A stretch of 64,000 nt of DNA, taken from positions 69,595 through 133,594 of the forward strand of contig LDXR01000008.1 of the NCBI GenBank assembly GCA_001443495.1, read 5' to 3'. Of this stretch, positions 38,826 to 40,596 are shown in pieces; position 1 is the stretch's first letter; each line of letters opens with the position of its first letter. Under the pieces are notes generated by a model. It searched no databases. It was not told where the DNA came from and saw nothing but the letters and a program-made list of their open reading frames with translations. Source of the stretch: a candidate division NC10 bacterium CSP1-5 (lineage in GTDB: Bacteria; Methylomirabilota; Methylomirabilia; Methylomirabilales; CSP1-5). The position numbers were made by a program, and so were the translations under genes.

Positions 38826-39124
38826 TCAGCTCCTCTCCTGTAAAGGGGTCGAACCGGAGGGCAGGAACCTTGAACAAACCCGCAGGAGGGGTGCCTCACC
38901 CCGATGCCCGGGAATGAGGATATTGTCTGCTCGTAGGCTTCTTGGGCATGGCGACCACGTGCGGGAGCCCCCAAGCTCCCTGGGGGCCTTCCCCGACGGC
39001 GTTTCACTATAGCGGGAAGGGACGGGTGTGTCAAGACGAAACCCGTGGCCCATTTCTATTGTAGAGTCCAGCATTCTGTGGTAGTTTCCCACACCTGGAA
39101 TCCTACTTGCAAGCGGAGGAGCCT

Positions 39125-39664
39125 GTGTCGCACCTCAAGAGCCGGATGCACGTGAGACAGGCGTTGTGTGTGCTGGTCGTGGCTGGCCTCGTATGGGGGC
39201 AGGGTCCGGTCGGGAGCGCGGATGCGCGTTCCCCTCAGGTGGCCGTGGAAAAGCCGGCACCTGATTTCACCCTGACTCTGCTTTCGGGAGAGAAGGTTCG
39301 ACTGGCAGATTTTCGAGGGAAGGTCGTCCTCTTGAACTTCTGGGCCTCCTGGTGACCGCACTGCCAGCGGGAGTCTCCCGTGCTGATCAAGGCCTACGAG
39401 ACGTTCAAGGACCGGGGGGTGATGTTCCTCGGCGTGAGTATCTGGGATACGGAGGAGGCGTCTCGACGATTTGTCCAGGAGCGTCGCGTCCCCTATGCCG
39501 TCGGACACGATCAGGGCGACCGGATTGCCAGGCTCTATGATATTCAGGGGACGCCGACCACCTTTCTCGTTGCCCGCGATGGCACCGTGGCGGCTGTGGC
39601 CCGGGGGGGCATGGCGCTGGAGACCCTGGCGGCGGTTCTCGAACGACTCCTCGAAGGCCGATGA
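39125..39664 (+). CDS. Thioredoxin-like (TlpA-type) protein with in-frame TGA, probable selenoprotein
   Basis: One continuous reading frame of 179 residues with TGA at 39353-39355 (codon 77). The N-terminus is a signal anchor, then [35 protein letters not shown], then [45 protein letters not shown]. The family active site is WCxxC (WASWCPHC), so TGA stands exactly at the first catalytic Cys, giving a U-x-x-C site. A hairpin fitting bacterial SECIS follows (39365-39385). The GTG at 39125 has GGAGG at the right distance. The alternatives are a one-base TGC-to-TGA error or a real stop. The EamA gene overlaps the true stop by 4 bp, as expected if the full gene is translated. Confidence 0.75.
39365..39385 (+). 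promoter_or_regulatory. SECIS-like hairpin after the in-frame TGA
   Basis: CAGC and GGGA pair with TCCC and GCTG around a 3-nt apical loop GTC (39373-39375), with a 2-nt bulge. The loop G is 18 nt after the TGA, inside the usual range for bacterial SECIS elements. The structure lies inside the coding frame, as such elements must. Confidence 0.55.
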
Positions 39665-40596
39665 CTGCATGGAAAGGCCGCGTAAAGGGTACCTTGATGG
39701 TCCTCGGGGCGGCGACGGCCTGGGGGCTTATGGGGACGGTGGCCCGGTATCTCTTCACCGCGGAGGAAGTCGGTCCTCTCCCGCTGACCGCTATTCGCTC
39801 GAGCCTCGCTGTCCTTATTCTCGTCGCGGGGCTTTTCGTGTGGGATCAGCGGCACTTGCGGCTGCCGCTGCAGGATGTGCCCTTGGCCGCCCTCGTAGGA
39901 GTGGCCGGCCTGGCCATGGCCAACGTCACGTACTACTACACCATCAGCCTCACCAGCGTGGCCACCGCGATTCTCCTCCAATACATGGCGCCGATCCTGG
40001 TCGCCCTGGGCTCCGTCCTCTTCTTGAGAGAGCGCCTGACAAGGATGACACTCCTCGCCTTGGGCGTGGCCGTGGGCGGCTGTTTCTTCATGGTGAAAGG
40101 GTACGATCCGACGCACCTCCGGCTCAATCTTCCGGGCCTGATCAGCGGGCTCGTCTCGGCGTGCGCCTTTGCGGGGTACACCCTGCTCACCAAGCGGGCC
40201 GTGGCGCGGATCCCTGCCTGGACGCTCCTGGCATACGCGTACGCCTTCGCCACCCTCTTCTGGTGGATCGTGACACCGCCCTGGCGTCTCCTGGCCGAGG
40301 GGTACCCCCTTCGTCTCTGGGCGATCTTCTTCCTGATCGGTGCCGCCGGGACCGTGCTTCCGTTTGCCCTGTACACTTTCGGCCTCACGTACCTGCCTGC
40401 CACCCAGGTCAGCATCGTCAGCACGATGGAACCGGTGGTGGCTGCGGGCGCCGGGTTTGCGCTTCTCGGGGAGGCGCTCGACTGGTCCCAGCTCTTCGGG
40501 GGGGCCCTGGTGGTGACGGGGGTGGTGCTGGTCCAGCGAGGGTCCGCGGCGGCCCGGAGTGTTCCCGAGGCGATGCCGGCAGGGCACCGAGGGTGA
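39661..40596 (+). CDS. EamA/DMT-family transporter
   Basis: A 311-residue protein with ten hydrophobic segments in two repeats of five (EamA domains about 10-145 and 155-295). Characteristic motifs such as ITLTSVATAILLQYMAPILVALGSVLFLRERLT (first repeat end) and YLPATQVSIVSTMEPVVAAGAGFALLGEALDWSQLFGGALVVTGVVLVQR (second) are visible. It is an inner-membrane exporter or importer of metabolites of unknown identity. Its ATG overlaps the stop of the thioredoxin gene (ATGA), so they are co-expressed. Confidence 0.88.
   Translation: MTAWKGRVKGTLMVLGAATAWGLMGTVARYLFTAEEVGPLPLTAIRSSLAVLILVAGLFVWDQRHLRLPLQDVPLAALVGVAGLAMANVTYYYTISLTSVATAILLQYMAPILVALGSVLFLRERLTRMTLLALGVAVGGCFFMVKGYDPTHLRLNLPGLISGLVSACAFAGYTLLTKRAVARIPAWTLLAYAYAFATLFWWIVTPPWRLLAEGYPLRLWAIFFLIGAAGTVLPFALYTFGLTYLPATQVSIVSTMEPVVAAGAGFALLGEALDWSQLFGGALVVTGVVLVQRGSAAARSVPEAMPAGHRG

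Follow-up and report, generated by a model that had tools for sequence, protein, structure and literature searches.

A probable ResA/TlpA-like selenoprotein with a covarying SECIS hairpin in the Methylomirabilota

Does the single TGA inside a thioredoxin-like gene of a candidate division NC10 bacterium encode selenocysteine (Sec), or does it mark a damaged gene, a different genetic code, or the insertion of another amino acid? The gene lies in a 64,000-nt stretch of DNA (the window) from a genome of the lineage Methylomirabilota (NC10), assembled at 2.77 Mb in 40 contigs and 99.7% complete. A first-pass annotation, made from the letters of the window, had proposed a probable selenoprotein, and this proposal is now strongly supported by the Sec machinery of the genome, by conservation of the codon, and by a hairpin that occurs in TGA genes only and covaries. 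We consider it almost certain that the gene encodes a selenoprotein, with UGA decoded as Sec via SelB and the hairpin, and we predict a product that is a ResA/TlpA-type thiol-disulfide oxidoreductase, probably exported. A gene like this would be split or cut short by standard gene calling, so that a probably exported redox enzyme would go unseen, here throughout an order whose members are mostly uncultured and which belongs to the same phylum as the methane-oxidising Methylomirabilis.

A thioredoxin-like frame and its neighbours

The reading frame is interrupted by a lone TGA and open before and after it, and every position given by the first-pass annotation was right on re-checking (Table 1). 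When the TGA is read through, the full frame matches the Pfam families AhpC-TSA (3e-32) and Redoxin (9e-26), and the nearest solved structures are ResA proteins (4nmu, 1.6e-26; 3c71, 1.2e-25). These matches run across the TGA, confirming that the two halves belong to one protein. The TGA was also correctly placed at the first Cys of a WCxxC motif (W-A-S-W-U-P-H-C): it aligns with the attacking Cys, and 3c71 reads WCPHC in the same alignment. The frame thus carries the marks of a ResA/TlpA/DsbE-type thioredoxin, namely the AhpC-TSA/Redoxin fold, the CxxC position (UPHC) and the cis-Pro region (GTPTTF). We call the protein ResA-like rather than ResA because it scores 127 bits against the NCBIfam ResA model NF002854, below the cut-off of 170 bits.

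Three codons are candidate starts (GTG 39125, ATG 39146 and GTG 39149), and the choice among them is uncertain: the putative Shine-Dalgarno sequence ahead of the first is not kept intact in the same-genus relative L012, and by eye GTG 39149 best fits the start candidates of L013 and L014. The N-terminus, read by eye, is hydrophobic and resembles a signal peptide, followed by GSADA, and the product is therefore probably exported to the periplasm.

Table 1. Positions of features in the window and of divergent tRNA-Sec-like RNAs in related genomes
Feature	Position	Strand	Remark
Predicted Sec-containing ResA/TlpA-like thioredoxin-fold protein	39125..39664	+	179 residues if the start is GTG 39125
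In-frame TGA, read as Sec in the favoured interpretation	39353..39355	+	codon 77, the U that begins the active site U-P-H-C
Putative resolving Cys codon TGC (UxxC)	39362..39364	+	
GGAGGAG, likely Shine-Dalgarno for GTG 39125	39115..39121	+	by eye
Bacterial SECIS hairpin	39367..39381	+	stem GCGGGA/UCCCGU (39367-39372/39376-39381), loop GUC 39373-39375
EamA-family transporter gene	39661..40596	+	ATG within the selenoprotein stop (ATGA)
Divergent tRNA-Sec-like RNAs	L149 ~1027-1124; L151 ~1039-1136; G020:C49:3626-3723; G024:C3:50105-50202		

The frame ends at a TGA (39662-39664), which the next gene overlaps by 4 bp, as had been noted at first reading. Relatives share the gene order aminotransferase / Sec-TlpA / EamA / UPPS: the aminotransferase and UPPS neighbours are kept in five same-genus genomes, and in three of these (L012, L013 and L014) EamA comes next, with the ATGA overlap kept in all three. 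The EamA gene is probably co-translated with the selenoprotein gene. Since EamA starts inside the selenoprotein stop, Sec insertion at the UGA could in principle gate the supply of ribosomes to the transporter, an unlikely arrangement in our judgement; if it held, expression of the transporter would depend on selenium status.

Codon 77 in homologues

Homologues of the protein occur in all 41 genomes searched (its own and 40 relatives), as expected for a thioredoxin fold. When they were compared at the position of codon 77, as the first-pass annotation had suggested, exactly that codon was found to be TGA or TGC/TGT: of the 30 closest whole-genome matches 25 have TGA and five have TGC/TGT, and five other genomes of the window's genus are among the best Sec members. 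A further 80 homologues from other bacteria carry TGC/TGT there, an outcome that follows in part from the design of the scan, whose seeds were Cys-based peptide patterns that disfavour TGA homologues; we do not take it as a gauge of how rare Sec is beyond the phylum. The gene combines the properties expected of a bacterial selenoprotein gene: an in-frame UGA, conserved coding sequence on both sides of it, and Sec/Cys pairs among homologues.

These comparisons bear directly on whether the TGA is an error of sequencing or assembly, or the nonsense mutation of a recent pseudogene. A single TGC-to-TGA change would suffice to produce it, and the assembly behind the window is a draft. However, relatives of the same genus have TGA at the same codon in separately assembled genomes, which in practice excludes a base error; the part after the TGA is conserved at least as well as the part before it (dN between the window and L012 is 0.022 after and 0.090 before); and the frame runs intact to a stop whose overlap with the next gene is conserved in the genus. 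We regard error or decay as extremely improbable.

A codon that is evidently translated through might also be read as another amino acid throughout the genome, as in codes where TGA means Trp or Gly. Yet no other stop is as common in the window as TGA, which ends 29 of the 52 long frames, and we therefore reject genome-wide reassignment. The true stop of this very gene is a TGA as well, the in-frame TGA aligns with the catalytic Cys only, and the genome holds a complete Sec system. A reassigned code has next to no likelihood on this evidence, and the TGA of codon 77 is best read as a signal for Sec.

The SECIS hairpin and the Sec machinery

The first-pass annotation had described a hairpin inside the frame with a loop G 18 nt downstream of the TGA, and the G does lie at exactly +18. 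The stem arms occupy nucleotides 12-17 and 21-26 past the UGA, and the 3-nt loop is GUC or GGC with its G at +18. Published constraints for bacterial SECIS elements (bSECIS) ask for a loop of 3-9 nt, an upper stem of 4-16 bp, a G in the first two loop positions, a UGA-to-loop distance of 16-37 nt and an MFE <= -7.5 (PMC13188914). The hairpin falls within them, with a 3-nt loop, a stem of 6 bp, a distance of 17 nt and a folding energy of -7.5 to -8.0 kcal/mol; the 15 nt of the window's own hairpin fold at -7.5 kcal/mol.

Taken from the window sequence alone, the energy evidence is weak. The 54-nt region folds modestly better than synonymous-codon shuffles (z=-2.0, p=0.022), the longer 54-nt fold favours another pairing than the hairpin, and the hairpin itself includes one G-U pair; a search of Rfam over the window returned two tRNAs only and no match to a SECIS family. 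For this reason a comparative test was used in place of single-sequence folding energy. The core CGGGAG-K-CTCCCG is present in 25 of 25 TGA homologues and in none of 85 Cys homologues. For covariation, 19 more TGA sequences were added, some of them from more distant paralogues, giving 28 distinct sequences in which 96.4% of stem cells pair, two-sided changes occur at four of the seven stem pairs, and compensatory (two-sided) cells number 28 against 4.5 in shuffles; sliding the pairing partner abolishes the signal. In 28 Cys homologues 48.5% of stem cells pair, no better than in slid controls. Synonymous differences between the window and L013-L016 are also lower in the 23 codons after the UGA (0.19-0.38) than upstream (0.55-0.72). 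The comparison of homologues excludes a chance hairpin, and coding constraint alone does not predict the two-sided changes. The covarying hairpin gives the Sec clade a clear SECIS definition.

The expectation that the host has Sec machinery, which the first-pass annotation had proposed to check by searching for selA, selB, selC and selD, was borne out by the presence of all four in the same genome. SelA is an open frame of 478 aa with a match to its N-terminal domain (1.2e-16), SelB (1.4e-113) carries the SECIS-binding winged helices SelB-wing_2 and SelB-wing_3, and tRNA-Sec has the anticodon TCA (74.3 bits). SelD (L044 / G000:C13:29194-30120) is itself a Sec form, with its own in-frame TGA in SHGAGUACK; Sec-containing forms of SelD with Sec in this position are already known. 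At strict thresholds, tRNA-Sec and SelB are each found in 34 of the 41 genomes.

Several observations on the Sec system stand beside this gene. The same genome has two more thioredoxin-fold genes with an in-frame TGA in the active site, L147 (G000:C4:64307-64675; FWTHGUINS) and L148 (G000:C13:74107-74433; FWTYCUINC), which are likely further selenoproteins. In some related genomes there is a second tRNA-Sec-like RNA, divergent, whose anticodon is UCA (54-58 bits), and in G034 such an RNA is the sole one found at the strict threshold. L144 (G039:C81), a TlpA-like gene that has the TGA and a SECIS-like hairpin, comes from a genome given as 100% complete, in which neither tRNA-Sec nor SelB was found at strict thresholds; missing contigs or loss of the Sec system would account for this.

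Might the UGA instead be passed by near-cognate readthrough, or receive Cys, carried on tRNA-Sec and perhaps inserted when selenium is scarce? Homologues have Cys at this position, and some systems are known to insert Cys instead of Sec. The SECIS hairpin, however, is found with covariation in TGA members only, and the SelD of this genome is present in a Sec form; taken together these favour Sec over Cys, and we hold decoding as anything but Sec to be very unlikely.

In the mechanism that we favour, Sec insertion, a ribosome on the mRNA would reach the UGA at codon 77, where SelB with Sec-tRNA-Sec (UCA anticodon) would bind the hairpin just 3' of the codon and deliver Sec in place of termination, so that the full-length protein would end at 39664. 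The product would be an exported ResA/TlpA-type thiol-disulfide oxidoreductase, in which the selenolate would serve as attacking nucleophile and the Cys of UxxC would resolve the mixed selenosulfide; the redox activity, the electron donor and the substrate are inferred.

Sec clades in the phylum and known relatives

In a tree of 99 proteins the Sec labels need four changes, against a mean of 32.7 for shuffled labels, and the Sec clade of the window has support of 99/95; the deep forks are not firm because the alignment is short. One member of this clade, L029, has Cys (CPHC) and a decayed hairpin, and is a probable Sec-to-Cys reversion. The tree has two further Sec clades outside this one (L135 and L138-L146, TlpA-like proteins from the order and class), and their hairpins have compensated pairs at the same position. 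Several Sec clades and a probable reversion within one phylum would be useful for studying the gain and loss of Sec.

Comparison with known systems places the gene as follows. With the extracytoplasmic ResA of Bacillus (4nmu, 3c71, 1st9) the protein shares the CxxC position, a Glu three residues past the second Cys and the cis-Pro region; it differs in having Sec for the first Cys (UPHC, whereas native ResA has CEPC), and the genes immediately beside it do not belong to cytochrome c maturation. The solved ResA proteins are too distant for their substrate or partners to be transferred to it. The model NF041054, for a ResA-like WAxxUGC motif-containing selenoprotein, shares the ResA-like fold and an active-site Sec, but the window protein reaches 48 bits where the cut-off is 300, and its motif is UxxC in place of UGC. 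Similar by its published description is the thiol-disulfide isomerase-like selenoprotein (cd02966 TlpA-like, UxxC), first reported from the Sargasso Sea set (PMC1088965) and included in the table of a 2026 review (PMC13188914), with which the window protein shares a TlpA-like thioredoxin fold, Sec first in UxxC, and a TGA followed by a bSECIS. The Sargasso Sea examples are from a marine metagenome, whereas the clade described here belongs to the Methylomirabilota and has a near-invariant hairpin core. That review (PMC13188914) also cites Deng 2026 for a metagenome-assembled genome of the same phylum in which 63 selenoprotein genes are predicted; like the window genome, it has many selenoproteins. 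TlpA-like UxxC selenoproteins and a selenoprotein-rich member of the Methylomirabilota are thus already known, and the window gene is a further, well-supported member; what goes beyond them is a Sec clade that spans the order, together with two additional Sec clades and a single probable reversion from Sec to Cys.
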